Assembly: GCF_000003815.2 (NCBI RefSeq)
Contig: NC_049994.1
Location: forward strand, 15,260,070-15,324,069
DNA from: Branchiostoma floridae
Taxonomy: Eukaryota; Chordata; Leptocardii; Amphioxiformes; Branchiostomatidae
Direction: 5' to 3'
Length of the DNA: 64,000 bases
In this document: positions 1,465 through 46,400 of the stretch, piece by piece
How the letters are laid out: each line of letters starts with the position of its first letter
How positions within the stretch are numbered: position 1 is the stretch's first letter
Notes under the pieces: model-generated
Told to the model about the DNA's origin: nothing
What the model saw: only the letters and a program-made list of their open reading frames with translations
Databases searched by the model: none
Position numbers and translations under genes: made by a program

Positions 1465-2285
1465 GACAGCCCTTTCCTCTCCCTATGGCAAGAAGGACTG
1501 ATTTGGGGCTTTCCACCTTTTCTTCTAACTCATGACGACTTCGGCTACATGACTTTCTACAATAATCTCTCGGGTCTACTGACAACTGAGGAAAATGTAG
1601 TACATTGTATTTTGCTTCTGTACGTCAGTGTTACCACGGCTTCACACCTGCCACATGTGTTGCCATGACAATCAACAGTCACGATTTGCTTGTCACCCAT
1701 TTGATCAAAATGTCAATCCGAGCGAGAATGCTGTGGTGCTGGACACAAACATAGCTCAGGGTTTTGCCCCCTCATAGCAAATACCAATCCCTTTCAATTA
1801 CAAATTGCCACAAGCTTTTCATCCATGTCTTTAGAAACATGTCTGAACGGAGGTGACGCATATAAGGCCACAGCCTGGCGCGCACGTTTCATCCACCCAC
1901 CGTACACGTGGCCTTAAATATATATAAAGTCCTTCTACAGTAATAGTTTCTTTCACCGGACAGCAAACTTACGGAACTCGACGATACCTGTTTCCCTCCT
2001 GTCTACAACTTATCAGCCTTCAAAACAAATGTCCAAAGCTACCTCCGTACACAGTTTCCAACTTTTTAGTTCATTCCATTGAAGAAGACAGAAGCCTTAA
2101 CCTTGTGTGGAGAGCAAGAATACAAATGACTTATAACTATTAAAGTAAAGCCCTAGCCTCATGCATAGCTACGAAGACAGAGAAGCCAGTATGACCAAGA
2201 AGAAGAACTGTCGCAACTGGGCAAATCCGGGAATGAGAGATCAATCGCCTTGTTTGCCAACGAGTCTAAACGTTTTCAGTGACAG
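1465..2285. other. Intergenic, upstream of the GPCR
   Basis: No coding exon is recognised. The stretch would hold the receptor's 5' UTR and promoter; a TATATATAA-like tract lies near 1918-1926, but its link to transcription is not supported by anything else seen. Confidence 0.4.
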
Positions 2286-7255: not shown

Positions 7256-7435
7256 CTACGACATGGGCTCCACGTAGTTTGCCGGCAGCATGCCGCTCTG
7301 TCCGGTACGCTGCACCGTCCCGGTCATCCACCCGTCGTCGATCTTCACGCAGTTGACAATGACGTCACCGTCCATGAAGCTGATCTCGTCGTCCTCAGCG
7401 GCGGTGTAGTCGAACACCGCGCGCATCACGTTTTG
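7256..7435 (-). CDS. NEB: Nebulin terminal exon: SH3 domain and stop
   Basis: The exon encodes 59 residues plus a stop after a CCACAG acceptor. It is a complete SH3 fold: [11 protein letters not shown] (RT loop), [19 protein letters not shown] and [12 protein letters not shown]. The ALYDY-like motif, the Trp pair position and the PxxY signature are intact. The nebulin-family hallmark GTVQRTG-x-GMLPANY is unmistakable. In vertebrates this domain anchors nebulin in the Z-disc by binding Pro-rich partners. The phase-0 start fits the upstream mini-exon at 8301-8345. Confidence 0.96.
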
Positions 7436-10400
7436 CTGTGGGCGGGAATGATACAAGAAGTTAAGATCATTTCATGCTTAATGGTAAAGGTAGTGCCGAG
7501 GGTTGTTTTAAAGGCCATATACACCTTTCTCACGCGGCGGCCATGATAGATCGAAGAAGAGGTCAATGAGGCAAACAGACAAAACTTATTTCTAAAATCA
7601 GGTCCCATTTAGTTTCCCCCCAAACCACACAAATTTTCATGATATAAGATAGAATAATAAATATTACAAGAAGTGTTATGCACCGAAAGATGTAGCAATT
7701 TAGAGTAGTGTAGACTGACCCCATAGTCCCTTAAGAGATGCAAAATAAAAACATAATAATGCAAATCTTTAACGAATTTGCAGCCATTCACTTACTGGTC
7801 GATTTCCTAATTGGCAGGCTACCATTGGTCGAACTGCTAATTAAGATGGACAGCCTTTTGTTTGCCACATTGAACTCGTTTTAGATCTATCATGGCCGCC
7901 GCGTGAGAAAGGTGTATAGGGGCAATAGATTCTAATCCACTGTGTCTGGGGCATGGTATTGGGGGGGTGGAGCCTAACCCTCTCCTCCCATCCGCTTTTA
8001 TCTTCCTAAACGAAGTCAGGTACCCATTTTCCCCCAGCATTTTTTCATGCTTAAAGACCTGTAATAGTTTCTATATTGCTCACACGATATTGTACAGGTA
8101 CATGTTGGTTTTCACGATTGTACAACGAACTCGGCTGTACAACAAGCCAAAGGAAAAATGAAAGCTTTGACACGACTTGCACTTGCAAATAAACTTCTAC
8201 TGATTATAAGCATAGCAAGAGAAGCTCTACTTCTATGTAATTATCATCAGTGTGAATTCAACAAAGACATAGAGTTTTTTCTTGTTGTTAGAATACGTAC
8301 CCCTGACTGGATTGTTGGCTCTGGTTCACTGACAGCAGCGGGAGCCTAGAGGAGGGGTCAGTAACAGCAGCACGGTCAGGTTAGGCGCTACTCTACTACA
8401 GGGGTCTAGAATAAGTCACACAAGCGAAAGGTCTTCTGCTTTTAAGCCCCGGTCACACATGGTCGACAAAGGCCTCCCGAATTTCTTCAGACCATAGTTC
8501 ATAGTTATCAAGGAAGCTCATCCGGTGGCACTGCTTGGGGAGTGGTTGGAAGAAAAGTCATACATGGAAAGGTTCTGTATGTGTGACAAGGGCTTAAGAC
8601 AAGGTACAAGCTAATAGATGGGAAAGAAGGCTTTCAACATCTTTTAATCACTTTCTGCTGCAAGCAAACAATATACAGTAACACATAGGAATGACGGCTC
8701 TAGTGTTATTGCATCAAACAATGTAAGGAAATCACAACACTTTAAACTGCAAGGAGATTAACATATCATAGGAATACCTTTTACGAAACTGTGGTAGCAT
8801 AGATTTTGAATCTTGCACAACATTTACTACTGATTAACAGCCATAGCTCAGACACAGAAAAGACCTCTACGTTACAACATACATATCAGCTGTTGTTAGG
8901 GAATATTAAAGAGTTCTAAGGCCTCACCAATATATTTTCTTGTTTCTCGCACTGTTTAAGGCAAATATATAAAAGGTGGACATCTTAAAAGCAGAGGGCG
9001 GAGAGGAAAACTTGAGAAGGACTGTATTCACTCCATGAAACTGGGGTTAGCAATGCATAAACCTTGTCCACAGGTTTTGTTTTCATTATGTTGTTTTTCA
9101 AGTTAGAAACTTTGAGCATACATTTTTAAAGTCTGGGAACCAACAACTTGGATTGGTGTGGTCGAACTTAGAAATACCAGTCTGCGATGGTCAAAGACTG
9201 GTATTTCTGGTACATCTTTCAACAGAACAACGTTGTGAGAAAGTTGTAAGACGGGCGAACGTACCTCAAACTTAGGCTGCTGTGCATCAGGATGGGTCAT
9301 GGGGTCGTAGTCTTCAATCTTGCCTGGCTTCAGCCTGACCTGTTGGTAGCCTGAGTAATGAGGGAAACGGGATTCGTTAATCTTTGACCCACTCATGATA
9401 CCATGGAGACCTTTCCTTCAGCTTAATGGTAGGAGTATACCCAAAAAGTGATTTTTGTTTTTCTTTTTACTTAATGGTCATTACGTAACAAGGCCTGAAG
9501 GCCACTCAAGGTTACGGGTTACACGATTGTAACTGTAACAGCATCTCTTCTCCCTATGTCAGAAACATCATGATTGAGACCAGCCCAATTGCTCACTATG
9601 AGTGAGGACTAACTGACCCAATATGCGAAGCGCGGGTTACGAGGGCTGCTCGGGAGATTCCCTACCCCATTTTGGCCGGAATGATTTGAAATCTGTATGC
9701 CTTGGTTGATAACTTGATACCCAAGCAGCGACCTGTATACCGTATGACTGGTGAACCATCGTGAAGTAACAAAACCCATTCTTGCCAAATTGGCAAGCTC
9801 AGAGAGTACTGTTTAAGCAGTAGTTAAACCAACCTTCAAGCAACATTGGAACAAGTTTTGCCAATGGCATTGTAAGTCCTTGTTAATATTGCTTCTAATA
9901 AGCAAGGTACATGTGGTTCACAACATTTGTGAACTGTATCTATAAATACTAGATGACAATTCCTTCTGAATTCATTCAATATAAGTTTACAACTAGATAA
10001 CTGTATGTAAGTCTTCAGTTATGACAAAACTATGAACAACTAATTAGATGGTCAAAGCTAGAAATGGGGAGAAAACTATATCATATAACAATATTTAGAA
10101 GAGGATCATACAGGATGTTATGATATCTTGCACAGCAGCTAAAAGAACCTAACATTTCATTTTAATGACAATCAGCTGTCCCCAAAGATATCAAAATAAT
10201 AATGTACTGGGTAGTCCTGCAATAGCTTGAATAAAAAAATGACTTGAAGAATTTGTAGCTGAGTAGGCCTCTAACCACTGAAGAAGTTGTGAGCAAAGAC
10301 ACCTGGTCTGGGTGACAGACTAAATAAAAGTTCTTTAACAAGATCTACACATGTATGCAGCTCCAGATGTCTTACTTTACATTCTCTTCTGAGATCTTAA

Positions 10401-13400
10401 GTTTCATGAGTCCCACCACGCATACTAATCATGAACTTAATATGTTCACCAAGTGTGCTCTTCTCAGTACAAATTATGAATTTAGTACTATATAAAAGAC
10501 CTCGCAGTATGATACTTAACTGTTGGATCAGGAATAACGTCATTGTTCTGACCTTTGTAGCATCTAGTGGTGCATACGAGGGGCGTGCAATTAGTAATGG
10601 TCCTGACCCATTTCCCATAGCAGGAGATTAATGAAACTTGGCACAGTTATTAGTCTTTCTCTTCATAGGAATCACCCAGAGTTATGCATTTCTCCCATCG
10701 TTTGATGCAGCTCTGGACACCGATTTTGTAGGACACCCCAGGTTGGTCCTCCAACTGATGCCTCATCAATGGCACAAGAGGGACGACCAGGTCTGGGAGC
10801 TGTTTCCACAGACTTCCAGCCACGTTTGAATTCAGCATGCCAGCGTTTTACAAGGTCATATGATGGGGCATCATCACCATAAGTTTCATTTATTTCATCA
10901 AAAGTCTTCTTTGGTGTGCGTCCTTTCAAATACAAAAACCGGATCACTGCGCGACACTCAACTGGTTCCATTTCACACCTGGTCCATTTCGCACCTGACT
11001 AAGTTCAAACACCAGTAAATCAGAAACCACAATTAGTTCAGAGCTGTCTTTTGCAACATAACCCATAGAGATATGAATTATTACACATACAAAATTTAGA
11101 TCAGACAACTGGAAGTGGGTCAGGACCATTACTTATTGCACGCCCCTCGTAGGTCACCACGTTTGCAGGCTGTTTCTGTAGCAAGGTATTTTTCTAAGAC
11201 AGTGGTTACTAACCTTCTCCTTTAATCTGCATCCCTTTCAAAAAACTGATACAGCCCCAACTAAGATGTCCTAACCCAGAACATCTGAACCCTGAACCGG
11301 GCCTTCCAGCTAGCAACTAATTGGACCTAGGAGCACAACTGCTGCTCGTACCAGTTCCTCCCTTGCATGACACCATACTAATAATTATCCATCTAAAGTG
11401 CCAGGAGCAACACTTTGATACAGAACACCAACTTACGTTGTTCTGCAGAGATTCTGTATCCTGTTGTGTGTGAATGAGAGATCAGGACGGTAGAGACATG
11501 GCAGGAAGAACAGATGGAGAGAAGAAGAAATGGCCAGAAATGAGAGCAGAAATGAAATGAAAAGAACAGATTGGCAGAAGGTGCAAATAGAGGAATGATA
11601 TATGCAAAGATAGGTAAAATATCAACTGATAGACAATACAAAGCAAGCAGTACAATGAATAGATGAAATTAGAAAGAAAAGTTTTGAGAGAATGAAACAA
11701 AGAGAAAGTTCAATGGCAGCAGAACTTTAACATCAACTCTCATAATTTTACCGGGTTACCTAAGACCACTGCATTTGCTAAACACTCACTCACATTAGAT
11801 ATTGGTGTTATCAAGGTTTTCCCAAGAATGTCTCAAACACCTGGATGTCTGAGTGCATACTTCGGGTACATTTGTATTACTGATGTTGCACCAAAGACGT
11901 TGCACTTAGTAGAACACTTTGGACTCACCACATATTTTAATGTCTTAGCGTATCCCATGTAATTATGAGAGTTGACGAAAGAGCTTTCACAAACGAAAAA
12001 GCCATTTTTTAAAAGTTATGGAGGATGTAAGATTGCATGGAAGGAATGAGGGCGAAGTTTACCCCTGGCTTTCCAGTACTTGTCGGGATCGTAATCCCAC
12101 ATGCCCGACGACTCGGAGGCGCTCTCTCTGGTCGACGACTCGTTCTCTGTGGTGTAGATTACTGTTGGGTCATGGGTCAAATGTCGGGTCGTGGGCCAAA
12201 TGTCGGGTCATGGGTCAAATGGCATGTGTGGGAAGGAAAGAAGGAAGAAAGCAGAATCGTGAAGGAGAGAAGCAATGAAAGAAATGAACAAAAGTGAAAA
12301 GCATGCAGCAGAGTTTTCATGAAGGCAAAATGAAAAGCAAACTACAAAAGAATAGACAGGCAGACAAAAGATTTTAAGTAGGTTACGATACAAAAATAAA
12401 GTGTGATTTATAACATAGGATGAATAACAACAAGACCACGGCATGTTGGCATGAAATGTAAGGACACGTACAGTCTGCATTGAGGTTGAGGAAGTCCTCG
12501 ATCTTGCGGTACTTCATGCCGGAGGTGGTGACTGAGGGGGCGACGAACCAGGGTGAAAATGTGCATAGACATGAAAGGAAGTACGAAAATGTTCAGAGAA
12601 AATGAAAGAAAAGCATAATGTCTGTGAAGACTTCTTTGTTATGGCTTTAAGAAAGAAGAAGACAGTATGAAACAGTGAGGCAACAAAATTTGTAATTGGC
12701 AGCAAAATGAGAACAGAGCAGAAACTTACCAACTCCACCCAGTTCACCTTTATGGGGAGGTGGGAAGAACAGAAAGTGAGAATGAAGAAAAGAGGAAGAA
12801 ATGAAGAAAATGAGGGATGCTTCCAGGCCACCACAATGCAATAATGCATTAGAACATTGTAACATAAATCTGTATGCAGAACATATAAACACAAACAAGG
12901 GCCTTAAATGGTGTAGAACTGGTAATTCTTCTTAACACTCATCACCAACTCTTAGTTCCCCATCCACGTTGATCCAAGAAAAGCAGGCAACCCCACAAAG
13001 CCATTCTTCTTTAACCAGTGACAAGTAGCTATGAGATGCAGCTTTCTTTCAAGCAGTATTCGAGACCCTACTCAATGTTAACCATAAAATATCACAGCAT
13101 TGCATTAGCTACTAATACATGACAAGCTTGAGAACCTTAAATTTTGAACAAACTCAAGTATTTGCATCATATTTTATTCTTCATGCTACAAGTACAGGTA
13201 TATTCAATCAATCAATACCAGGCAGTTGGCCATAACACCTCAAGTCACAGAATTCTTATTCCAAAACCAGAGTGCTAATTACAATACACCATTCAATTTC
13301 CCTTTAATGGATATTTATGAGTGCACTGATGCAGCTATGGATTGTTTGCCGTATTAACCTGTGGTCTTAGACCAGTAGTGGTGGGAATATTTCTCTGGGT

Positions 13401-28400: not shown

Positions 28401-31400
28401 ACGTCCTCTTCCAAAATGTTTCATATATTGTTTTTGTTTCTCATGTTGTTCAACCTTGCAAGGCAGGGATAACCAACAATTTGTTTATTTGTTTGTGTTT
28501 ACCTCTGATGCATAGGCATTTGCCTCCTTCAGTCTCTTCATCTCTGGATCCTGCTGGATGGTTGTGTACTTGCCACGCCCCTTGCTGGCATCGTCCTTGT
28601 CCTTAATCTCTCCATAGAGAACCTTAGGAATATCCCAACCAGCCATTGTTTGTTTATGTTACAATTCACTAGACATTAGCTGCTGATTAGCCATTGATAC
28701 AAGATCAGGGAAAGCCCATCACATTGTCTGTGCTGACTGGATTCTGCCTCCAAAAGGCACTTAACCATTCTCACGCTATTCATACTAGTATTAAAGCATT
28801 CCAGATGTCAAGAATGACCACCAGACCACAAAGGTACAACCATAGCTACAAGCAGATTCAGTAAGCCCAACCTGTGTTGGTCGATCTTCGACATAAGAGA
28901 CTGTGCCATGCTATTCACAAATAGAATATGTTTATCAAAAAGCTGTACTGCTTTGAGGGGAGGACTACATGTAAGTATGTAGTATATTTAAGGCAAGCAT
29001 CACTTATTGAGGATTTTGACTGCCAATTCCCCAACATGAAACTTTCCCAATCACAAGCAGTTTTCTGAAAACATTATGCCTTCCGACATAATCCAAAGTC
29101 CAACACCTAGACTTGTATTTGATATCAAGTCACACAACATTCCTTGTGGCAGGCATGAATACCTGGCTTTGGAACTTTCCAACTTCCTGGAGGCGCTTGA
29201 GTTCGGGGTCGTCGATGGCGGCATGGTACTTCTGTCCATGTTGCTCCAGGCGAGTGTGGCCATAGTGGATCTATTGAGAAGTGAATTAGGCAGAGGAGAA
29301 AGATATAGACACCGAAAGGGACAGCCAGCAATACAGGTAGGAAAAATAAATGATCAGCCATTCAAAATTAAGAAGAAAGCGTTAAGACTAAAATAATATA
29401 AAAAGAAATGAAGGGAAAAGAAAATAGGCATGCATCTAACAAAGGTTAAAATAGTGCTACCAATAACAGTGTACACATAAGGGTGTTTTGGAAGGTAAGC
29501 TAGGGATAAGGTGCACTACATGTACATGTGTAAAGTTGCTTAAAGGTATACATGGCATGATTTTTCCAATTTTCTAATGTCAATTTTCCTTGAAGAGCAC
29601 AAATCTTGCCTTGTATACTTTTATTGTGAGCAAACTGAAAGAAAAGCATTACAGGCAGGCAGAAAGGTTTCAACATAAACAAAACAGAGAGAAGAGAGAT
29701 AGAAAGGAACAACAAAGAGCAACAGGTGTCCAGCAAGTGGTGTGTAAGAAGATGGGAAACAGTACACAGATAGATAGAAGGCATGAGATGCATCAGAGCA
29801 AAGAAAAAAACACCAGAGAGACATGGTGGAAGAGAAAGGTTTAGGTTCTGGGAGCAGTTGGAAGGATGGAAGAGGAGAAAGCTTCTTCGAAGGAAGAGAC
29901 AGTGGTCTACTGTAGCTTTGGTTTGGTTTGGTTAGCTAGGCGGATCCTACGACTACAAAGTAAGCTTCTTCTACGAAGGGAAGGGACCTCGTCTACTCTT
30001 GTAAGGCTTCCCTAACTGTTTAGTACTGTTAGTGGATAGTTTCGAGGTCCATGTACCTGACAGTAAGTGAGCGCCTCAGGGTCTGCCATAGTGCACACCG
30101 TCCACGTTGGCTGCCTATATCTTGTTGCCTCCACGACCTTATTATTGTTATTGTTCCCATTCAAAGCCGCTAGGTCCTCATCGAGGGTGCGCACTATCCC
30201 CCGCATCGATTGCTCGTGGAGTTCGATAAGACGGCGCACCATGTCCTGGGTCATGGGGGTGTCATCATCCTCCTCCTGACCCCCATCCCTGAGCGCCTCA
30301 GGGGGAGTGTCCGAGCGGCGACTCGTAACCGACACCCCTGGTTTCTCATCTTTCACCGCCCCTGCTGACTTCAAACCCACCTGCTCTATCGTCTGTTTCA
30401 CCTCTTCTACCTGCTCTTTAGTCTCTACGACATCCCCACCCTTATATATAACCTCCAGCTCCGCCTTTCCAGCAGAGTCGGCCCCTCTTAACTCCTCTCC
30501 GGACAGGCTAAAACCTACCTTCTTCTTCCCACGGTATTTAGGCGCCCCTTTACTACTGCTTGTACCCTCAGTATAGGATGGGATCTCTGGTTCACGATGC
30601 TTACCAGAGGCAACATCTTCGTAGAATTTGGCCATGCTTTCAATATCTAGGGACCACTGAGGTTCCTCAAACTGTGTGCTTTCTGATACCCTATCCCCGA
30701 AAGAGCTCTCAAAAACTTGCCTTTGGTATTCAGCCTGAGCGGTAACTTTGGACAGAGTCAGGGCCCGCTGTGTCTCTGGATCATAAAGGACTGTTGTGTA
30801 GCTACCTTTAGTTTCCTTAAACCTCTTTTCATAGTTAACAAAGCTGTCTAGACGCGAGATCTCGATAACGCGGCTGTTCTCGGAGTTGAACAGCAGGGTC
30901 CTGTAGTTGCTGGTTTCGATGATGAGCTCTTCTTCGAATGCAACTAAGTTGTCAACCCTGGTCAGGTCTATGAGACGTAGGACCACCTTGTTTGTGGCAC
31001 GTTTGACAATGGTCTCAAAGCTTTCCACGTAATCGTTGCGGAAATCCTTCTGTGATGAGATTGAAGACAAGTTCATGGCCTTCTTTGTGGCTGGGTCGTA
31101 CAAAACTGCAACATGAGGCCCAACCTGGTGCGTGAACGCTTCCTTGTACTTGTCAAGGTGCTGGATTTTGGATATTTCCATCACATGCCGTGTTTCTGGG
31201 TCATACAAGATGGCATTGTAGTTCGCCTTTGCGATGTCATAGTCCTCGTGGTATCGGGTGACACCGATAGCCTGGGACATTTCGATTACCCTTAGGATGG
31301 ACATGTCTATGCTGGCGGAGTACGCAGCCCGACCCTCCATTGTTTGAGGGTAGTCTTTGCGATACCTAACCGAGCTCTGAACCTGGGTCAGGTCAAGAGC

Positions 31401-34400
31401 CCGCTGCGTTTCTGGATCAAAGAGGATCGTCGAGTATTTCCCCCTGCCCTTCTGGTGCTCTTCCTGGTACTTTGAAAGGCTCAGGATCCTCGAGAGTTCG
31501 ACCACACGTTTGGTTTCTGGGTCATACATAACGGTGGTGTACTTGTCCTTATCCCTGAGGAACTCCTCCTGGTACTTTATCACACTCTGAACATTTGAGA
31601 TGTCGATGAGTCTCAACAGCTCTTTGTCACCGTATGTAGAGATGTGAGGCCTTCCTTCGAATGTAATCGGGAAGTCCTTCTTATACCCAATCTGTGACTC
31701 TGTCTTTGACAGCTCAATGCATCTCCTAGTCTCAGGATCGTAGATGATGGTTGCGTAGTGTCCTTTCTCTTTCTCGAAGTTCTTCTTATAGTTGACGTAG
31801 CTCTGTATTCTGGTCAGCTCAAGGACCCTCTGCGTCTCAGGATCATACATACAGGTGGTGTAGTCGCCCTTAGACAAGTCATACTCTTTCTGGTATTGTA
31901 TCAAACTCTGTAGTTTAGTGAGCTCGATGATGCGCAGCGTCTCCTTGTCGTCAGGAATGGGGATGTAGGCTGCCCTGCCTTCAAACTCTTGTGGGAAGTC
32001 CCTCCTGTATAAGAGAGTGCTCTGAACTCGGGAGGCTTCTTGTGCATGGCGGGAGTCGATGCTGTCAGTTGCCAGAGTGTACTGTCCCTTCTCTTGCTCA
32101 AACTGCTCGTGGTACTTGAACACACTCTGCATCTTTTGCATCTCAATCACCCGTTGCGTTTCAGGATCGTAGAGAACAGTTTGGTACTGACCAACATTCC
32201 TCTTGTACTCATCCTCGTATTTGACCAGACTCTGGACTGCTGACAGTTCAATGACTCTCTGTGTCTCTGGATCAAAGAGCACTGTTGTGTATTTGCCCTT
32301 GTCCTTCTTGAACTCCTCATGATACTGTGCCAAGCTCTGAAGCTTGCTCACGTCAACGAGACGGAGGATTTCCTTATCAGCCTCATCAGCGCCCTTTCCA
32401 CCGCGGCCTTCCATGCCAACAGGGAAATCCTTCTGGTACTGAATCTGACTCTGCAGTTTCGTAGACTCTACCGCTGTCTTGGTACGGGGGTCCCACAAGA
32501 CAGTTGTGTAATTTCCCTTATCACGATAGAACTGCTCCTGATAGTTTATCAGGCTCTGGACTCTGGAAATCTCAAGGAGTCTCTTGGTTTCCGGGTCGAA
32601 CAGGATAGTGGTGTAACCACCCCTTCCCTTCTCATACTCAGAGCGATACTCGGCCAGGCTGTGCAGTTTGGACATCTCAACAAGCCTGACCATTTCCTTG
32701 TCTGTTGTGGATGAAGTGTAGCCAGGCCTTTGTTGATACTCCAGCGGATAGTCTCTCCTGTACTCGAACGTGCTCTGGAGATGAGTGACATCGGTGGCTC
32801 TACGAGTCTCCACATCGTCCGTAATCTGCATGATGTTGCCCTTTCCTTTTTCGAAGTCCTCGTGGTACTTGAAGGCGCTCTGGATTTCAGACATCTCCAT
32901 AAGGCGTTGTGTCTCAGGATCAAACATAATGGTGGTGTACTGACCCTTCGATCTCCTGTAGTCCTCTTCATATTTGATCAGGCTCTGGATGGAGCTAACC
33001 TCCACAACCCTCTTAGTCTCTGGGTCGTAAAGGACAGTGGTATAGTTGCCCTTGCCTCTCTGGAACTCCTCTTGATACTTCGACAAGCTCTGGAGCTTGC
33101 TGATGTCCACAAGACGCAGGACCTCCTTGTCCTGGTCGTCTATCACACCAGCATCTCTTCCTTCCATGGCAACTGGGAAGTCCTTTTGGTATTCCAGCTG
33201 GCTCTGAGTTTTGGATAACTCTACCACCCGCTTGGTCTCAGGATCGTACAGAACGGTGGTGTAGTTGCCCTTCTGTTGTTGGAACTGTTCTTGGTATTTC
33301 ACCAGGCTCTGTACGTTTGAGAGCTCCATGGTTCTCCTTGTTTCTGGATCAAACAGAATCGTGGTGTAACCGCCTCTTTCCTTCTCGTATCTCTCGTGAT
33401 AGTTGATCAGGCTGTGAAGCTTGGTCATGTTCACCATCCTGACCACCTCTTTTTCGTCGGCAACAGGAGTGTACTGTGGCAGCTGTGCCCGAGCTTCCTT
33501 CCCGTACTCAACTGTACTCTGGAAGTGGGACACCTCCTCTGCCCGTTTTGTCTGAACATCATCTGGTATCTGTGAGTAGATGCTCTTGCCCCTCTCAAAG
33601 TCCTCCTGGTATTTGAAAGCGCTCTGGATTTCAGAAAGCTCCAAAAGACGCTTGGTCTCTGGATCGAACATGACAGTTGTGTACTGTCCCTTATTTTTTT
33701 TGTACTCATCTTCGTACTTGACCGCGCTCTGAATTGAGGACAGTTCAACCACCCTTTGAGTCTCGGGATCGTAAAGAATGGTGGTGTATTTTCCTTTGCC
33801 CTGCTCAAACTCTTCCTGGTACTTGAGGATGCTGTGGAGTTGAGACATGTCCACAAGACGGAGGATTTCTTTGTCAGCCTCTGCACCTGACTGTGCAGCC
33901 CTACCCTCCTTGAAGTCCTTCTGATACTCGACCTGGCTCTGAATCTTGCCAACTTCGATGGCACGTTTAGTCTCAGGATCGAAGAGAACAGTCGTGAAGC
34001 TGCCCTTTTCCTTCTGGAACTGTTCCTGGTATTTGATCAAGCTCTGGATTTTGGACAGCTCAATCAGACGTTTGGTTTCAGGATCGAACATCACAGTGGT
34101 GTAAGCACCCTTTTCATCTTCATACTCCTTGTTGTACCGGATGAGACTGTGGATTTTCTGAAGGTTCACAACTCTCAGCAGCTCTTTGTCATCAGGGATC
34201 GTTGTGTAGCCCGATCTACCTTCGTAACGAAGCGGGTAGTCTTTCGGGTACACCACTGAGCTTTGGACCTTAGTTATCCCTGTCTGCCTCCTTGTCTCAA
34301 CATCGTCAACAACCGATGTGTATTGGCCCTTTTCTTTTTCATACTGCTCATGGTAATGAACATCGCTCTGCTTGCTGGACAGGTCAATGAACCTCTGAGT

Positions 34401-37400
34401 TTCGGGATCATACAGCACAGTTGTGTATCCACCCTTTTCACTCTCAAACTCTTCCTTATATTTGAGGAGACTTTGCACCTTTGACAGTTCCAGAACACGC
34501 TTGGTCTCAGGATCGAATAGGACAGTGGTAAACTTGCCAATGTCATCCTTGTGCTGTTCTTGGTATTTGATCAAACTTTGCAGTTTTGTAACATCCACAA
34601 TTCTCAAAGTTTCCTTGTCGGCAGCCAACGACTGGTACTCTGGACGACCTTCGAACTTGGACGGGAAGTCTTTCTGATATTCGCTCATGCTCTGCCACTT
34701 AGAAACAGACCTAAGACGTTCAGATTCAGGATCATCTGTTACAGTTCTGTAACTACCCTTCATCTCATGATACGCCTTCTGGTATTCAACATTGCTCTGT
34801 ATCTTTCCAACCTCCTGAACACGTTCGGTCTCCGGATCGAACAATATGGTGGTGTATTTTCCCTTGTTCTTTTCGAATTCCTCCTGGTATTTGTTGATAC
34901 TCTGGATTGAGGAGAGTTCCACAACTCGCCTGGTTTCTGGATCATACAGGACAGTGGTGAAGTCTCCTTTGTCCTTTTCATACTCTTCGTGGTACTTCAC
35001 AACACTGTGCAGCTGCGACATTTCTATCACTCTCAACATCTCTTTGTCAGGGACCATTGTGTAGAAGGCCTTCAGTTTCTGATATTCTTTCTGATATTCT
35101 GTCTCGCTGGCAAACTTGCCAACATCCTTGAGTCTCTTGCTGTCAATGTCATCAGCAACAGAGTGGTACTTGCCCTTCTCTTTCTCATACTCGTCATGGT
35201 AAGATACTAAGCTCTGTATCTTTGACAGCTCTGTGAAACGCTGGGTCTCAGGATCATACAAGATGGTGGTAAACTGGTCCTTGTCCTTCTGATACTCCTT
35301 CTGATAGGCAATTGCGCTCTGGATACTGGACAGTTCAACCACCCTCTTGGTCTCGGGATCAAAGAGGATCGTCGTGTACTTGCCCTTGTCTTTCTCAAAC
35401 TCTTCCTGATACTTCAGCAAGCTGTGAAGCTGAGACATCTCCACCACTCTGACTGTCTCCTTGTCTGCAACAGGAGTGTACCCTGTCCTTCCTTCAAACT
35501 CTTGAGGGAAATCCTTTTGGTACTCCAGCTGGCTCTGATACTTCCCAACATCCTTCGCTCTCTTGGTCTGCACATCCTCTTCCACAGAGGTGTACTTTCC
35601 TCGTAGTCCACGGAACTCCTTCTGATATTCTACATCGCTCTGCCACTTTCCAACCTCCTTGTATCGCTTGCTTTCAGGATCGAACAACACTGTGATGTAA
35701 TTGCCCTTGTTTTTCTCAAACTCCTCGTGATATTGCACTGCACTTTGTAGCTTGGAAAGCTCAACCACACGTTTGGTTTCTGGATCAAATAGAATGGTGG
35801 TGTACTTTCCTTTCTCCTTATTGTACTCATCAGTGTAGTGCAGGAGGCTCTGAAGTTTGTTGACCTCGACGATTCGCATGTGCTCCTTGTCATCAGGAGC
35901 TGAGTGATAGATGCCTCTCTCTTCCAACCACTTCCTGACATACTCATACTGGCTCTGGTGGCGGGACACCTCCCTGATCCTCTCAGACACAGGATCGTCA
36001 GTGACCAGCTGGTACTGACCCTTGTCTCTTTCAAACTGTAGATGGTACTCATTTAAGCTCTGAAGCTTCGACATCTCCATCGTGCGGGAGGTCTCTGGAT
36101 CGAACATTACAGTCGTGTACTTGTCTTTGTTTGCTTGGTATTTCTTCTCATATTGGATGACGCTCTGAATGCTTGAAAGCTCCACGACACGCTTAGTCTC
36201 GGGATCGAACAGAACGGTTGTGAACCTGTCCTTGTCTTTCTCGAATTGCTCCCGATACTTGATGAGGTTGTGGAGCTGGGACATCTCGACCACGCGGATG
36301 GTTTCCTTGTCGGTTACGGGGGTGTATCCTGCCCTCTCTGTCATCTGTTGCGGGAAGTCCTTTTGGTATTCAAGCTGACTTTGCAGTTTGCCAGCCTCCG
36401 TTGCATGTTTGGTCGCAACTGTGTCTGCAGTGGCTGTGTACTTGCCACGGAGGTCTTTGAACTCTTTCTGATACTCCACATCACTGGCGAGTTTGCCCAC
36501 TTCCTTGTATCGCTGAGACTCGGGGTCAAACAAGACAGTGATGTAGTTGCCCTTGTTCTTCTCAAACTCTTGCTGATAGTAATTCATGCTCTGAAGCTTG
36601 GACAGCTCGACAACTCGCTTTGTTTCCGGATCGAACAGTACGGTGGTGAACTGGCCCTTCTCTTTCTCAAATGTCTCGTGATACTGCACAAGACTGTGCA
36701 GCTTGTTCATCTCCACAACACGCACTTGCTCTCGGTCATCAGCGACCATTGTGTATTGCCCCTTCTTTCTGCGATGTTCCCTTTCATACTCATACGGACT
36801 CTGGTACTTTGTTGTCTCCTTGACTCTCTGAGTATTGGGATCATCCGCCACGGCAGTATACTTTCTCCTCCTTTCCCATTCCATCGGGTGGTCAACAGGA
36901 TACTCCACCGAGCTCGCCAATTTACCAACTTCCTTGGCATGCGTTGCTCTCATCTCATCAGTCGTTGTGGTGTACAGTCCCTTCTTCTCGTGATAGTCTT
37001 TCTCGTATTCTACCCTGCTCTGCATTTTGGACATATCTGATGCATGCACAGTCTGAACATCATCTGCAACCATCTGGTAGCCTTCTCTTCCTGTCATCTG
37101 CTCTGGGAAGTCCTTCTTGTACTTCACCTGGCTGTACATGTGCTTCATCCCAAGCTGCCTCTCCATCTCCTTGTCATAATCCAGCCATGCCGTGTACCAG
37201 CCGAGACCCCGTTCCTCGAGGAACGTGCGCTGGTACTCATACTGGCTCTGCAACTTGGTCATCTCCTGCACTCTCCTCGTCTGTGGATCGTCTCCCACCA
37301 TGGTGTACTTATCCTTTGACGCCTCGTAGTCTTTCTCGTACTCGATCCTGCTCTGCATCTTCCCAACATCCTTCATCCTCATGCTCTCTGGGTCATCAGT

Positions 37401-40400
37401 CACCAACGTGTACTTTGACTTCCCTTCTTTTCCCTTCTCGTAGTACTTGATCAAGCTTTGGATCTCAGATGCCTCCTTTGCATGTTTTAGCCCGGATGCA
37501 TCAACAATGGTCGTGTAACCAGACCTTCGCTCCATGTTTTCAGGGAAGTCTTTCTTGTACACGTTTGAACTGAGGTATTCTGCTGTCTCTTTTGCATGCT
37601 TTATGAACGGGTCATCCGCAATGGAGGTGAAGATTCCAGTTCCCCTCTTCTCACGGTACATTCTCTGGTACTCAAAGTCGCTGACCATCTTTGAAACATT
37701 CTTAACTCTCTCTGTGTTGGGGTCATCAAGAGCAATGGTGTATGCCTGTTTTCTCTCATGTGCTGCTGCCTTGTAAATTGTATCACTGGCTAGCCTTGTC
37801 GAGTCCTTCACCCTCTCTGTAACAGGGTCGTCAACAACTGCAGTGAAACTTCCACGTCGTTGCAGAGCCCTCTTCTTGTACTCCAGTTCACTCTGATACC
37901 TGTTGACCTCCTTGACACGCTGTGCTTCCGGAGTGTCAACGACCGCGGTAAAGCTTCCGCGCCGTGTACGGAAGTTCTTGGTGTAAGCTAGCTCGTTCGA
38001 AACCTTTCCAGACTCCTGAGCGTGCTTTGTGGCGGCATCATCCGTGATGGCAGTGAAGCTGCCCCTTCTCTGGCGGAAGTTGCGCTGGTATTCAACATCA
38101 CTCTGGAACTGGTACACCTCTTTGGCCCTTTCGGTTGTGGGATCGGCTTCAACAGACGTGTAACCACCACGCTTTTCCAACTCCATTGGGAAGTCCTTGG
38201 TGTAGCCCTGTTGGCTTCCCAACTTGGACACGTCTTTGACGTGCTGAAGATTTTTGTCATCGGCAATCATGGTGAAGATACCAGTACCCTTCTTCTCACG
38301 ATACAGCCTCTCATACTCCAGTTGGCTTTGCAGCCTTTGGCTATCCTTTGCTTGCACTGTTGCAACATCATCAGTGACTGACTGATAGATCTCTCTCCTA
38401 GGCTTGTCCTTCTTCTGGTACTCGATACCACTAGAGAGCTTGGTAACATCTTTGACTCTCAGAGTTTCCGGATCGTCCGCAACAGCTGTGTAGTCCAACC
38501 TTCCTTCCAGGGTCATTGGATGGTCTTTTTGATATTCGACCTGGCTATGAAGCTTGCCAACCTCCTTCATTCGTTTGGACTCCATGTCATCGGTGACAGT
38601 CTGGTAAATCTCCCTTCTTGGCTTGTCTTTCCTTTCATATTCTATCTCGCTAGCCATCATGGTAACATCCTTGACTCTGCGGGTCTCTGGGTCATCAGCA
38701 ATTGAGGTGTAATCGAGACGACCCTCCAGTGTCATTGGATGATCTTTTTGATACTCAATTTGGCTGTGCAGTTTACCAACTTCTCTCATCCTGTTCGATT
38801 CCATATCGTCTGTGACCGTTTGGTAAATTTCTCTCCTGGGCTTGTCTTTCCTTTCATATTCAATTCCACTGGCCATGATAGTCATATCCTTAACTCTGCG
38901 GGTTTCAGGGTCATCTGCAACAGCTGTGTAGTCCAACCTGCCTTCAAGAGTCATCGGATGGTCTCTCTGGTACTCTATCTGGCTTTGAAGATGCCCAACT
39001 TCTTTCATTCTCTTTGATTCCATATCATCAGTCACTGTTTGGTAAACCTCTCTCCGCGGCTTGTCTTTCCTTTCATATTCGATTCCACTGGCCATCATTG
39101 TAACATCCTTAACCCTGCGTGTCTCTGGGTCATCGGCAATTGAGGTGTAATCGAGACGGCCCTCAAGTGTCATAGGATGATCTTTCTGGTACTCGATTTG
39201 GCTGTGAAGCTTTCCAACTTCTTTCATTCTGTTTGACTCCATATCATCTGTTACCGTTTGGTAAATTTCTCTTCTTGGTTTATCTTTCCTTTGATATTCA
39301 ACGCCACTGGCCATCAGTGTCATATCCTTGACACGGAGAGTCTCGGGATCATCTGCAACAGCCGTGTAGTCAAGACGACCCTCGAGGGTCATCGGATGGT
39401 CCTTCTGATATTCGACCTGGCTGTGTAGTTTCCCAACCTCCTTCATCCTCTTAGACTCCATGTCATCGGTGACTGTTTGGTACACTTCTCTCCTTGGCTT
39501 GTCCTTTCTCTCATACTCAACCCCACTAGCCATGATGGTCATATCTTTGACACGGCGAGTTTCAGGGTCATCTGCAACAGCTGTGTAGTCCAGCCTACCT
39601 TCAAGAGTCATTGGATGGTCTCTCTGGTATTCTATCTGGCTTTGCATATGCCCAACTTCTTTCATCCTCTTAGCCTCCACATCGTCTGTCACAGTTTGGT
39701 AAACCTCCCTGCGCGGTTTGTCTTTCCTTTGGTATTCATACCCGCTGGCCATCTTAGTCACATCTTTCACACGAAGAGTTTCGGGGTCGTCCGAGACCGC
39801 AGTGTAGTCATGCCTTCCCTCAAATGTCATTGGGTGGTCTTTCTGGTATTCAAGTTGGCTGTGCAACTTGCCCACTTCTTTCATTCTCTTTCCCTCAGGG
39901 TCATCTGTGACGGTTTGATACACCTCCCGTCTGGGCTTGTCTTTGCGTACGTACTCAACTCCGCTCGACAACTTGGTCACGTCTTTCACGCGAAGAGTTT
40001 CGGGGTCGTCAGATACTGCTTGGTAGTCTCTTCTTCCCTCAAAGCCCATGGGGTGGTCTTTCTGGTATTCAATCTGGCTTTGCAGGTGCCCTACCTCCTT
40101 CAGTCTCTGACTGTCCTTAGCGTCAGTGATAGTTTGATAGTACTGTCTCCTCTCTTTGTCTGGCTTCTGGTATTCAATCTCACTCTGCATCTTGCCCACA
40201 TCTTTGACTCTGACTCCTTCAGGGGTGTCAGCAACTGTCTTGTAGATGTCTTTCTCCTTGTGGTACCTTGATTCATACTCTACCTTGCTGGCAAGGTGAG
40301 TAGCTTCCTTGGCACGGATCGTGTTTGGATCATCATGCACGGATTGGTAGTCCTTCCTCCTCTCAAAGTCCATGGGGTAGTCTTTTTGGTACTCCAGTTG

Positions 40401-43400
40401 GGACTGAAGAGTTTTCATGCGCCTTATGCGTTCCTGCTCAGGGGTGTCAAGCTCTATATACCCGACATGTCCTAGCACTTCTTGCTTATACCGTTTCTCG
40501 TACTCAAGCTGACTGGACATTTTGTAGGCATCTTTGGCATGCTTAGAGCTTGGGTCTTCTTCCACTGAGGTGTATGCATGTCGTTTTTCCATGGCCAAGG
40601 GGTGATCTTTGACGTAGGAAACAGAGCTCTGCATCCTGGCAGCGTCTTTTTGTGTCTCAAGCTGCAGCTCATCAGTGATGGCTGTGTACCGGTCCTTCGT
40701 TTGTTTAGCCCTTTTCTGATATTCCAGTTCACTGCTGATGTGGGTTACCTCCTGAGCACGCTTTGTCACGGTGTCGTCCGGCGTGCTTTGGTACTTGAGT
40801 CGCCAGGTCATGTCTTTTGGGTGGTCGCGTGGATACTCCACAGTGCTCTGCTCGTGAGTTTGCTTCTTCTGCCCGATCATCCACCTGTCGACAACAGCCA
40901 CCATGCCTGGCTTGGCTTCCAGGTACCTGGGATAATCTCTGTAGCGGACGTCGCTCTGCATTCTGGCGAGCTCTGCACGACGCCTTGCCTCTGCCTCATC
41001 AGGGAGGCCGCCCTGGTAGCGCCACATCCTGTCTTTGGCTTCCTTCTCATACTCAGCCCGACTGAGCAGCTTGGTGACCTCCTGTGCCTTTTGCAGGAAG
41101 GGGTCAACCACAACTTGGTAGGTGTCTTGCGGAACCGCCCTGTACTCCTCGAAACCCTCCTGGGAGAGGATGTTCTGGGCCAGGTTTGTCAGCCTCCTTT
41201 CTGAGGAGTGCTCGCGATGAACAGCAGGGCTGCGGTCTCTGAACCTCCTTGCAACTGGTGGCGGCTCTCTTCCCCGTGGACGGTCTGCCACAGGGGGTCC
41301 TGGGGAGGGCGACCTACGGGTTCGGCGCATGGGGGATATCGGTTCAGCAGGAGAGCTTGGCGGTGTTGGAGGCCAGGAGCGAGGTTGACGGCGCACAGGC
41401 GTCGGATCCCTCCTGATGGTCTTCAGCTTCATTCTCTCTCCTCTGATCTGCACCTCCCGTTCGTACATCTCCACACATTTCGAGACTGAAGCCATCCAGT
41501 CTTCACCTTCTTCCCCTTCGGGGGGAGGTGGGGGGCGAGACGGTGGGGCTGTAGTTACCGGAGAGGCAGGAGGAGAGGGAGTGGGCGGGGCGGGCGCGGG
41601 AGGCGGCGGGCGCGGTGGCGGCGGCCTCTCTGGTGTCCCTTCGTCATCCGACGACATCGATCTTCGGAAACTGTCGGAGCGAATCCTTCTACGCATCCGT
41701 CTGGGGCTTGGTGGAGGAAGCAATTTAGCCTCTGCGGCCTTTTCGAACAGTTCCTTCTTGGTGCTTACGCCTGCTGCGATTTGTATCTCTTCCCTCTCTT
41801 CTGTCTCAGAGCTGCTCCAACGACCCTGTGAGAACTGCTGGAACATCTCTCGCTTCTGGATCATTTCATGGGAGGGCGTAGGCGGCCTGATAGGAATCAC
41901 GCGCTCTCTCTCTTCTCCCTCTTGCCTGACAAACTGGCCGACGGCGACTTTTTCGAACAGCTCTGCCTTCTGGCCAACATCCTGTCTAGGAGGAGGGGGC
42001 CGCTCTGGGGTTTCTTCTTCACTACCACTCCTTCCCCTTTCGAAGAGCTCTCTCTTTCTCACCACATCTTGCTGAGTTATCATCTGAAGAGCCTCTTCAG
42101 TTTCAGAGTTGGTTCTCCTCCACGACTGCCCGACTTTTTCGAACAGCTCTGCCTTTTGGCCAACATCCTGTCTCGGAGGAGGGGGCCTTTCTGGGGTTTC
42201 TTCTTCACTTCCACTCCTTCCCCTTTCGAAGAGCTCTCTCTTTCTCACCACATCTTGCTGAGTTATCATCTGGAGAGCCTCTTCAGTTTCAGAGTCGGTC
42301 CTCCTCCAAGACTGCCCAACATTTTCAAAGATCTCCTTCTTCTGACCGACATCAAACCTTGGAGGAGGTGGTCTCTCGGGCGCTTCTCCACCTTCGTCAG
42401 AGTCCATGTATCGACTGGCCCAATGGCCTTCGGCAACTTTCTCAAAGAGCTGTTTCTTCTGGCCGATGTCCTGGCGTGCCACTTGGATCTCTTCCCTCTC
42501 CGCCATCCTAACCTCGCTCACTCCTCTCTCGAAGGCCTCCTTCTTCTCACCAACTTCTTGGCGTGTAATTTGAGTTGGTTCTCTCTCATAATCCTCGGCA
42601 TCGCTGGCTCCCCGCTCGAACATTTCCTTCATTTGTCCGACTTCATGCCGGGTTACATGCCTTCGCTGCCTCAGCTCTTCTGCTCGGGCCATCTCAAACA
42701 TCGATTTTGCATCCCTGGCACTGAGAGTAGGACTCTCATCTAGCTCAGGAGGCACTGCCTGTTGTACGGTGAACTTGTACTTGTGCCCACTGCCATACTT
42801 CCTCTCATGAGCTTTGTAGATGACTTTCTGTTGCTGCACCAACATGCGGGATGTCTCTGCCGATATCTTCATGATACTCTGCTCGATCAAAGGGGGCACT
42901 TGGACCCTGAGACAGGACTCCTTAGCCACACGATCTGGAGATATTTCTTTAAGGAGGATGTAGACGTATCTAGTGTCTTCACTCACATCTTCCTGTGTTT
43001 TCACTTCCGTAATTGCTGGCCAACGAAGTTGCGACCAGGCATATGCTGTAAGTCGGTTTGGTTTGTCCTTCTTACCGAAACGGATCTTAATACGGAGCAC
43101 TCTTTCCCTGGACCCCCTTGGGAGTTGGATCTTCACGGTTTCGGTCCGACGTGCCACAACGATCTTGGGTTGGCTTTCCACCTTCTTTGTAACGCCTGTA
43201 TGGACAGCTTTTGCCGCCCTGACGCTAGTAACATGGCTAGCTCTTTCTTGGCTCATTGCAGAACTAGTGGCATGACTAGATCTTTCTTGAGTCATTGCAG
43301 ATGTAGAGACATGGCTAGCTCTTTCTTGACTCATTGAAGAAGAACTGACATGACTAGCTCTTTGTTCACTCTGTGAAGATGTAGTCACACGACTAGATCT

Positions 43401-46400
43401 TTGTTCACTCATCGCAGACGTGGTAACTTGGCTAGATCTTTCCTCACTCAGGGCATTAGTGGTTTTGATGGTGTGTTTCACTCCGCCACGAGACTTGGAC
43501 ACACCTTTGAGGGAAATACCCCTCAGTGTCCCTGGTTCTTGTTTTATGGTCACTTGGCCGATCTCCACTGGCAACGGAGGGATAGGTGGAGGGGGTTCTA
43601 CCTCCATTGCTGCACCAACCGCTTGTTGTACGGTGGTTGAAGCCTTCGCTTTCTTCTCCATCTCCATTGCTCTCATTCCCTGAGTGGGCTCAACGGTTGT
43701 TACGCCGCCTGACGTGGTCTTCTTTTTCTTCTGCATCTCTAAGGCCTGCATGGATTCCTCTGCCTCTCTCTTTGTTGTTACAGTTTGCTTACCATCTGAC
43801 CGGCTGGTTTCAGATTTAGCTCTTGCCTGAGACGCTTCAGCGTGGGATGTTTCCTCAGACTCTTGCTTTGAGACCACCTTGCCGTCGGAGGTCACAACTT
43901 CCCTGATGGTTTGCTTTGTGGAGGACCTCACTTCACGGACGCTTTCCTCATACTGGTATGAGCTGTATGACCCAGTTTTTACCAGCCTTCCTCCTGATAC
44001 ATGTTCTTGCTGAGGACTGCTGGATTTCTCCTCAATAGGCGGAGGAGTGCCAGGGTTGTGTGGATGTGGATTGCCAGGGTTGTGTGGATGTGGATTGCCA
44101 GTTTTGTGGCCTGGATTTCCTGCAAAAGGATGAGGGTTTCCAACCTCTTCTTCATCAAGCTCATCTGGATTGGTGAACACCGACGATGTACGTTGGCTAG
44201 GTTTCTCGACACGGACGGGAACATCTCTTACAACGTCTTCCGTTAAGGTTTCATATGAAGGAGGACTGGGGAAGTCCGGTTCCATGGGTGTTTCTGGAAC
44301 TTCGGGTTCCACTGCCTCCATGAGTGCATCCGGTACCACAGGGCTTGGAGCCTGTTCCATATAAGGTGGGGTGGGGACATCTGGCCGTCCCGTAGCTTCT
44401 GCAGGGCTGGGGAAGGCAGGCTCTACGAAGACGTCTTCTTCCATCGGAGAAGGTGGCCTCTCCAGAGGAACAGCTTCTTCTCCAGGAGATGTTGCTCTGG
44501 GAGAAACAGGTCTTTCCTCTGGAGTTGCCTCCTTGCTAGGAGATACTCCCCTGTGCTCATCAGGGGACACCTTTTCAGGAGGTGGACTGGGGAGGTCAAA
44601 GTCAATCAGAGCATCTTCGGCTTCCTCATACTCTGCAGGTTGTTCCTCTTCAGGCTCCTCGACAACAGGAGTTCGAATTGGTTCTAAAGGAGCGTCTGTA
44701 GACAAAGGCAGCTCTGTGAACTGCTCTGAGGGGCCCTCTTCTGCCTCCATGGCTTGTTCTATCCCCGTGTCTTCAACCGTAGGGCTTGGTGCCATCTCAA
44801 TGATGGGTCCTTCTGGTTCCTTCGGTTGAGTTTCCTCCTCAAAGACATCTTGCTGAGGAGGGCTGTCTTCTGGAGGAGTTACCTCAATGGATGGACTTTC
44901 TTGAGGTGGTTCTTCTTCTTGAGCTTCTCCTGGTGGAGGACTATCATCTCCTTGACCTTGATCTTGTGCACCTTCTGTGCCAAAGGCACCATTACCTTCT
45001 GCCTGATCTGCATTGTCAGATTCAGTATCTTCCTGACCAGGGTTTTGCTCTGGGTTGTATGCAGCAGGGGTTTCATGTTCACCAGGCTGGGCGTTACCGT
45101 TACCATCATTCTCATCATCACTACTGCCATTGTTGTTGTTGTTATTACAGTTAACAAGGGCAAGCCGTGAGCAGCCAGTAAGCACCCACATCGCGCCCTG
45201 TTGGTACGGCGCGGATTCCTGACTATCGAATTTAGGATGGCTCATAATTTATCGATTTTAGGAATGCCTACGCTGGACACTATGCGAACCCTGAGGCGCT
45301 CAGGTACTAGGTCTGATGGACCCGTTAGTTTGGGCTGCGCAAGGCTTTCCTCAAACACTCCTCAACTGTAAAAAAACAGTGTAATTGGCATATGGGCCAA
45401 GATCTCTGTGCTTCGGAATACTCATAAAGCGTCTATGTACGAGAAACGAATGGCAGCCGTTTTGCTGAAGAAAGGTCGACTGCTCTTCAGAAAATGAATG
45501 AAAAAAGAAACCAGGAATGACTAATGTCTTTTTCTAAGTGATTATCTGCACTGTGTTTTGTATGGTGTCTTATGTTGGAACAGTATTCACCAATTTTACA
45601 ACATGGAATTTTCAAATAGATAACCACTTAGAGAATGACATTTCAGAAAAAGATCAAACAGAGAGTAAGGCACCAATGTATAGAGAAAAGGAAGACTTAA
45701 AATGAATAAAAGGATAGATTATGATTCGGAAGAGTAGAGAGATATGTTGGGGATATAACGTTGATCCCGAAAACTGTGTAGTTCATCTTTCCATTGCAGG
45801 TGACCAGGTCTGTGATCTATTAGAGCACCCAGTGATATCCACACTCTGGCAAGCTTTTTAATAGTAGGTTTGTGCTAAAGATTTTGTACAGTACCTGGCT
45901 CTGAATCTTACTGACGCTCCTTATCCGGTTGTGTTCGGGGTTATCGGCTGTGTAACTGAACTTCCCTGCCAAAGCCTTGTAACCCTTCTGGTATTCGTTC
46001 TATGGAGAAAAGAAGAGGGACAGAAGGAAAGAGTCAAAGAAAGGAAGAGAACAGAAATGCAAAGGAAAACATTAAGCAGAAGGTTGCAAAGAATAGAATC
46101 AAGAGGTAAAAGTTAGAACATAGAGAATAGTAGAACAGATAAATTTGTAGAAAAGAGAAAAAACAGTTTGAAGTAACAGTGCCAATATACAAGTGTACAA
46201 GAGGAGAGAGCTTGATGTTCACATGTGTCCTGTACAGCTGATGTCTCTCTTTATATCTAAGATCATCTATATATAAGTATATCAAGGATATATAAGGGTT
46301 ATGGAATGACTCAGTACAAAAGTCATGATACTATATTGGATGAAGAGTCACCACATGACTTGGACCAATGCAGTGATGACTGCTACCCATTCAACATATC

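Follow-up and report, generated by a model that had tools for sequence, protein, structure and literature searches.

Adjacent super-repeats of eight, seven and six modules in a nebulin gene of Branchiostoma floridae

We analysed a 64,000-nucleotide stretch of the amphioxus Branchiostoma floridae (NCBI RefSeq assembly GCF_000003815.2, contig NC_049994.1, forward-strand positions 15,260,070 to 15,324,069; the window, to which all positions below refer). Its minus strand carries a nebulin gene dominated by one very long open frame, within which an array of tandem modules is organized into super-repeats that shorten toward the C-terminus. An earlier reading made from the letters alone (the sequence-only reading) had described this shortening and raised the question of whether a mean of about seven modules per unit has structural meaning.

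Results

A nebulin gene with one giant open frame

The long open frame is presumed to be a single giant exon (Table 1). Its assignment to nebulin in the sequence-only reading is borne out by tandem modules with an S...Y motif and by nebulin repeat matches to Pfam PF00880, with E-values of 4.2e-96 for 30015-36800 and 4.7e-69 for 36801-42200. A hand count gives about 97 modules between residues ~1390 and ~4850 (39 upstream of the array, 57 in it and 1 partial behind it); a profile derived from the sequence itself detected 94. Small exons continue the gene on both sides, most of them predicted to hold one module, and an SH3 frame, to judge from its strand and order, is probably the C-terminal exon of the same gene.

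Eight units built on a constant core

Delimiting modules at the S of the SxxxY motif resolves the array into 57 modules at 30741-36800 on the minus strand, in eight units of 8, 8, 8, 7, 7, 7, 6 and 6 modules. This reproduces the module and unit counts of the sequence-only reading and, exactly, all eight of its unit lengths in base pairs (846 to 636; Table 1), with the eight-module units on the N-terminal side and the six-module units on the C-terminal side, as it had described; its location for the array also matches, but its limits of 30735-36794 are 6 bp off those of the S-cut array. Every unit keeps a core of A-B-B, A-B-B (two A and four B modules), and the number of additional spacer modules falls as 2-2-2-1-1-1-0-0. 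The proposed division of the unit into halves, a b c' x and a' b' c d, is likewise supported.

The array has three types of module. A modules (a, a') have 34-38 residues, often with a KD[FY]P...EGR-like stretch, and B modules (b, c', b', c) have 35 residues with a [20 protein letters not shown] stretch. The spacer is a fourth, less conserved module that on the N-terminal side follows each A-B-B block, x in the first half and d in the second, and is 35 residues long in all nine cases. Of the 32 B modules, 31 carry the B motif [LIVM][FYW]DP, which is absent from the 25 other array modules and from the 39 upstream modules; there are four per unit, except for three in unit 8. Likewise, the A tail is found in 15 of 16 A modules and 0 of 41 others in the array. 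Nearest neighbours were of the module's own type for 38 of 57 array modules, against a mean of 6.6 and a maximum of 17 in 5,000 shuffles. The putatively actin-binding S...Y motif is present in 52 of the 57 modules, with four of the five exceptions in unit 8. The D of SDxxY is mostly not retained: of the 57 modules, 22 have L as their second residue and 3 have D.

Table 1. Features of the nebulin gene in the window
Feature	Position	Strand	Description
Giant open frame	30012-45248	minus	single open frame, presumed giant exon; 5,078 codons + stop
N-terminal part of giant frame	41160-45248	minus	first 1,363 residues
Upstream modules	36801-41159	minus	without B motif (0/39); most 35-residue ones resemble spacer x
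Two-module super-repeat	38446-39944	minus	73 residues, 219 bp; N-terminal of array
Unit 1	35955-36800	minus	8 modules (a b c' x a' b' c d), 846 bp
Unit 2	35109-35954	minus	8 modules, 846 bp
Unit 3	34263-35108	minus	8 modules, 846 bp
Unit 4	33519-34262	minus	7 modules, x absent, 744 bp; c' still ends VGK as in x-bearing units
Unit 5	32775-33518	minus	7 modules, x absent, 744 bp
Unit 6	32022-32774	minus	7 modules, x absent, 753 bp
Unit 7	31377-32021	minus	6 modules, x and d absent, 645 bp
Unit 8	30741-31376	minus	6 modules, x and d absent, 636 bp; most diverged
Exon before giant exon	45895-45999	minus	predicted, one module; ends ..KIQSQ at GT donor, phase 0
Exon after giant exon	29163-29270	minus	predicted, one module; begins IHYGH past AG acceptor, phase 0
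SH3 open frame	7259-7471	minus	probable C-terminal exon of nebulin gene; PF00018 3.9e-15

The absent modules are spacers

Units 4-8 were placed, in order-preserving fashion, onto the eight positions of units 1-3. The best placement leaves out x in units 4, 5 and 6 and both x and d in units 7 and 8, with protein and DNA in agreement, although the DNA margin for unit 8 is small (70 versus 66). Calibration with artificial deletions recovered 19 of 24 single deletions in units 1-3 with protein and 19 of 24 with DNA, 57 of 84 (protein) and 55 of 84 (DNA) double deletions there, and 21 of 21 deletions in the seven-module units with either; two of the five protein single-deletion misses were falsely answered as x. 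Module types are, however, settled by motifs and not by placement alone: four B motifs per unit mean that each half still has its two B modules and that the missing module is the spacer. The absence of x from unit 4 on and of d from unit 7 on, as claimed in the sequence-only reading, is therefore borne out by placement and motifs; on an unrooted unit tree, their absence may reflect loss, as that reading had it, or gain instead. Diverged copies of x or d in the shorter units had been named beforehand as the outcome that would contradict the pattern; these were looked for, and neither was found.

Module boundaries affect how these units look. With the cut moved 12 residues ahead of the S, the shorter blocks have a third module that resembles a c/d hybrid; in an ungapped test of the seven hybrid-like modules in this frame, those of blocks 9, 11, 13 and 14 were clearly closer to d, those of blocks 15 and 16 more weakly so, and that of block 7 was slightly closer to c. 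The idea that the wrong module had been named was rejected, as the naming holds once modules are cut at S. We also rejected exon skipping as the origin of the missing x, which would leave the S-D or S-N of x before a': in all five shorter units a' starts with SQ, which, as a single residue, is weak evidence against such an origin.

Super-repeat periods of eight and seven

Module similarity was compared across lags with 2,000 shuffles, using modules shifted one place relative to the S-cut frame. For the first 24 modules mean similarity peaked at lag 8 (86.0, with a largest shuffled best-lag mean of 74.4), and for the next 21 at lag 7 (94.4, with a largest shuffled best-lag value of 78.4); the eight- and seven-module periods are true super-repeats. 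In the last 12 modules, lag 3 (51.3, nine pairs) equalled lag 6 (51.0, six pairs), both below the shuffled 95% point of 56.3, and lag 9 equalled that point on three pairs only. In the S-cut frame, rolling windows that start at modules 1-13 had a best lag of 8, the one at module 16 had 4 and those at modules 19-37 had 7, after which the best lags were 3, 3, 6 and 3. As the last 12 modules have no six-module period distinct from three, the six-module unit rests on its homology to the halves of the longer units, and the terminal '6' is better described as A-B-B four times.

Age and relationships of the units

Over the six shared positions, pairwise identity between units ranges from 30 to 68% for protein and from 48 to 67% for DNA. 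Identity at fourfold-degenerate sites is 0.16-0.43 across all 28 unit pairs, compared with 0.26 expected at saturation; nonsynonymous divergence (dN) is 0.23-0.67, and synonymous divergence (dS) was computable in 5 of 28 pairs, at 2.2-4.4. Saturation of the fourfold sites indicates that the unit pattern is ancient and hardly a product of assembly collapse. On this substitution evidence the unit duplications are ancient, and the protein has evidently been held by selection since.

The unrooted unit tree was (1,2),(3,(4,((5,6),(7,8)))) for protein and DNA alike, and a second run on the same alignments returned the same splits. Support by Shimodaira-Hasegawa-like approximate likelihood-ratio test (SH-aLRT) and bootstrap was 91/73 (protein) and 79/61 (DNA) for the branch separating units 1-3 from 4-8, and 92.5/82 (protein) and 88/70 (DNA) for units 7 and 8 together. 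An approximately unbiased (AU) test rejected a grouping of units 1 and 8 (P = 0.002). The observed steps fit a single event on each of two branches of this tree, which, with its modest support, also admits other histories.

Register with the thin filament

The vertebrate seven-module nebulin super-repeat spans 38.5 nm (PMC7109182), and its WLKGIGW and ExxK motifs touch troponin T (PMC12402328, PMC11026289). By analogy with vertebrate nebulin, amphioxus modules would each advance one actin subunit along the thin filament. A modules would then fall every four actins, next alternately every three and four, and finally every three; taking 5.5 nm per module, the eight-, seven- and six-module units would be 44, 38.5 and 33 nm long, and only units 4-6 would step by seven actins, matching the seven-actin tropomyosin-troponin repeat. 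Relative to a seven-module register, units 1-8 are offset by +1, +2, +3, +3, +3, +3, +2 and +1. With offsets reaching +3, the array holds no common seven-module register; if each module advances one actin, a single fixed register with troponin along the entire zone would be excluded.

The loose WLKGIGW pattern [KR][GA]xG[WFIYL] had no match in the array and three upstream (residues 2320, 2535 and 2680), and a search among tryptophans revealed one weak WLKGIGW-like stretch in the 57 modules, WLEERGIY in unit 2 (residue 3107). The four WLKGIGW-like stretches of the giant frame, GTGIF, GTGIF, GLGW and WLEERGIY, lie 6, 4 and 12 modules apart by hand count. With an offset of up to +3 and WLKGIGW nearly absent from the array, a structural meaning for the mean of about seven modules finds no support; we dropped the 57 modules and their mean of 7.1 as numerology, no register being kept. 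Searches of solved structures returned no significant relative (best E-values 0.48 and 0.091, both to unrelated proteins).

Flanking exons, upstream modules and neighbouring frames

Among 12 stretches with module scores, ten end in S[DEQ] before a GT; of the other two, one has CD ahead of its GT and the second reads through. The predicted exons that flank the giant frame are both in phase 0, and splicing 45895-45999 directly to 29163-29270 would restore S-Q-I-H-Y, so that the 15 kb giant exon would be skippable in frame. Alternatively, a separate promoter might serve it. The giant frame has an ATG at codon 2; the sequence upstream, read by eye, contains a plausible AG acceptor, after which each of the three frames runs into stops. 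The two ends of the giant frame (30046-30101 and 45270-45322) match each other as an imperfect inverted repeat of ~55 bp with a perfect 15-base core. It scores 41, compared with a maximum of 27 in 30 shuffles; it may derive from a mobile element or have a regulatory role.

Residues 1-1,363 of the giant frame gave no significant match to Pfam (best E-value 0.14) and look, by eye, enriched in P, E and S. Within them, a tandem repeat of 186 bp at 41945-42340 is translated as [18 protein letters not shown]. Between this region and the array lies a super-repeat of only two modules; over the 28 pairs of its eight units, protein identity is 68-95% and fourfold-site identity 0.07-0.48 (13-25 sites a pair), and it seems, on this comparison, to be old and strongly conserved. 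Beyond the SH3 end of the gene, a 449-residue open frame at 133-1482 (minus) has by eye the look of a seven-transmembrane receptor. Another frame, of 108 residues at 10672-10998 (minus), looks on visual inspection like the N-terminal portion of a mariner-type transposase.

Discussion

Taken as a whole, the array is probably best explained by a constant A-B-B core from which spacers are absent stepwise, such that the unit steps from eight to seven to six modules. Two in-frame events, each of one 105-bp module and spread by tandem duplication of neighbouring units, would account for it. Toward the C-terminus, the spacer of the first half is absent from unit 4 onward and that of the second half from unit 7 onward. 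We hold losses to be somewhat more likely than gains. Spacer x is the nearest array type for 13 of 18 upstream 35-residue modules, and tied for two more, which suggests that x is the common and probably older type. Also in favour of loss, x and d are less conserved among units 1-3 (mean identity 0.45 and 0.43) than b, c' and b' (0.68-0.71), and the tail VGK ends c' in units 1-4 but none of the 28 other B modules, so that unit 4 keeps the x-side tail without x.

The opposite direction, in which an ancestral three-module A-B-B acquired d in every second block to give seven modules and then x to give eight, with spread toward the N-terminus by tandem duplication, is a tentative alternative. It requires equally few events on the unrooted unit tree, has a possible source in the spacer-like modules directly upstream and agrees with the three-module rather than six-module pattern of the 12 C-terminal modules; midpoint rooting, moreover, places the root on the long branch of unit 8, a position that favours gain if it is accepted as it stands. 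That branch may instead record divergence at the edge of the array and not age, as four of the five modules without S...Y lie in this unit, and when unit 8 is left out the midpoint root moves to between units 1-4 and 5-7. Gain also has to contend with the VGK tail on c' of unit 4, which among B modules is otherwise found only before x.

Several observations weigh against stepwise spacer absence by loss, beginning with the rooting on unit 8 and the missing six-module period at the C-terminal end. Modules a (0.43) and c (0.49) are nearly as poorly conserved in units 1-3 as the spacers, which weakens the argument from conservation, and VGK is a weak marker, as VGK or VGH also ends 11 of 39 upstream modules and VGK tails occur on x and d of unit 2. 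Rooting the units with upstream modules as outgroup failed, the module trees being too weakly resolved, and half-unit trees do not cleanly separate the halves. Support on the deciding branches of the unit tree is moderate: the AU test does not reject a clade of units 4, 5 and 6 (P = 0.23 for protein, 0.40 for DNA) or, for protein, groupings 3-7-8 (P = 0.25) and 6-7-8 (P = 0.058); such groupings would upset a history of two events. On the functional side, each vertebrate module is reported to contact three neighbouring actins (PMC11026289), which makes our register argument a simplified one, and an AlphaFold model of one eight-module unit was uninformative (mean predicted local distance difference test score, pLDDT, 36.7).

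Two further explanations concern the step itself. Selection might have zoned unit length along the thin filament to suit a changing geometry or partner, for example with eight modules toward the pointed end and six toward the Z-disc; we regard this as improbable. The pattern is indeed ancient, in order and held at the amino-acid level, and only 2 of 560 orders of these eight lengths are monotone, but neighbours that arise by tandem duplication are expected to be sorted anyway, so this count is no fair test of selection. Actin and tropomyosin repeats, moreover, are not known to vary along a filament. That the step is an artefact of assembly or repeat collapse, or a decaying array, we consider very improbable. 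There are runs of N elsewhere in the window and unit 8 is diverged, but one frame stays open across 5,078 codons, and the units share at most 67% of their DNA letters, too little for collapse, which is thus very unlikely; synonymous sites are saturated while protein similarity is kept.

If stepwise spacer absence on a constant core is the right account, the likeliest functional reading is that nebulin here would bind actin continuously and would not be tied to troponin once per unit, leaving the spacer free to vary. A stronger claim is rather doubtful: that adjacent super-repeats of eight, seven and six modules represent a long-lived functional design without a fixed once-per-troponin register, in which case the seven-module lock would be a vertebrate addition together with WLKGIGW, or only the middle zone would be troponin-locked. 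A natural, ancient nebulin with eight-, seven- and six-module units offers a test of whether the seven-module troponin register is a general need or a vertebrate specialisation. It is also a clean case of the stepwise growth or shrinkage of a protein repeat, with a constant A-B-B core and an optional spacer.

Hanashima, Kubokawa and Kimura (2009, Gene 443:76-82) reportedly dealt with the amphioxus nebulin gene, probably this gene or its ortholog, and nebulin of Ciona has also been the subject of a paper. The titles and abstract openings of the literature we found make no mention of 8-7-6 nebulin units; Hanashima 2009 and Bjorklund 2010 are the most relevant papers, and the former may already describe such units. 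Among the non-human species that it covered, a 2012 survey found none of the nebulin-repeat proteins that lie outside the LASP class; earlier work cited there had found these only in vertebrates and Branchiostoma floridae (PMC3305314), which fits the guess of amphioxus made in the sequence-only reading. N-RAP, nebulette and LASP, of the nebulin family, have nebulin modules too; human LASP-class forms with a LIM domain and an SH3 domain have two or three (PMC3305314).

The closest comparison is with vertebrate NEB, likewise a giant thin-filament protein with tandem ~35-residue modules bearing S...Y, super-repeats and a C-terminal SH3 domain (PMC7109182, PMC4126377, PMC11026289). Vertebrate super-repeats have seven modules and one WLKGIGW each (PMC12402328), whereas here units have eight, seven or six modules: seven are found in three of the eight units and so not throughout, and one WLKGIGW per super-repeat is not found in the array. 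The amphioxus array lies in one open frame, whereas human NEB has 183 exons (PMC4126377). In humans, deletion of NEB exon 55 removes 35 residues from super-repeat 9 and causes nemaline myopathy, for which a mismatch with the thin filament has been offered as the explanation; partial super-repeat deletions have been proposed not to be tolerated, yet protein levels were normal in one patient in whom exon 77 or 32 was skipped (PMC11026289, PMC4126377). The shorter amphioxus units resemble the exon 55 deletion in that one module length is missing from a super-repeat, but unlike that disease-causing change, the one seen here is fixed and carried by several units.

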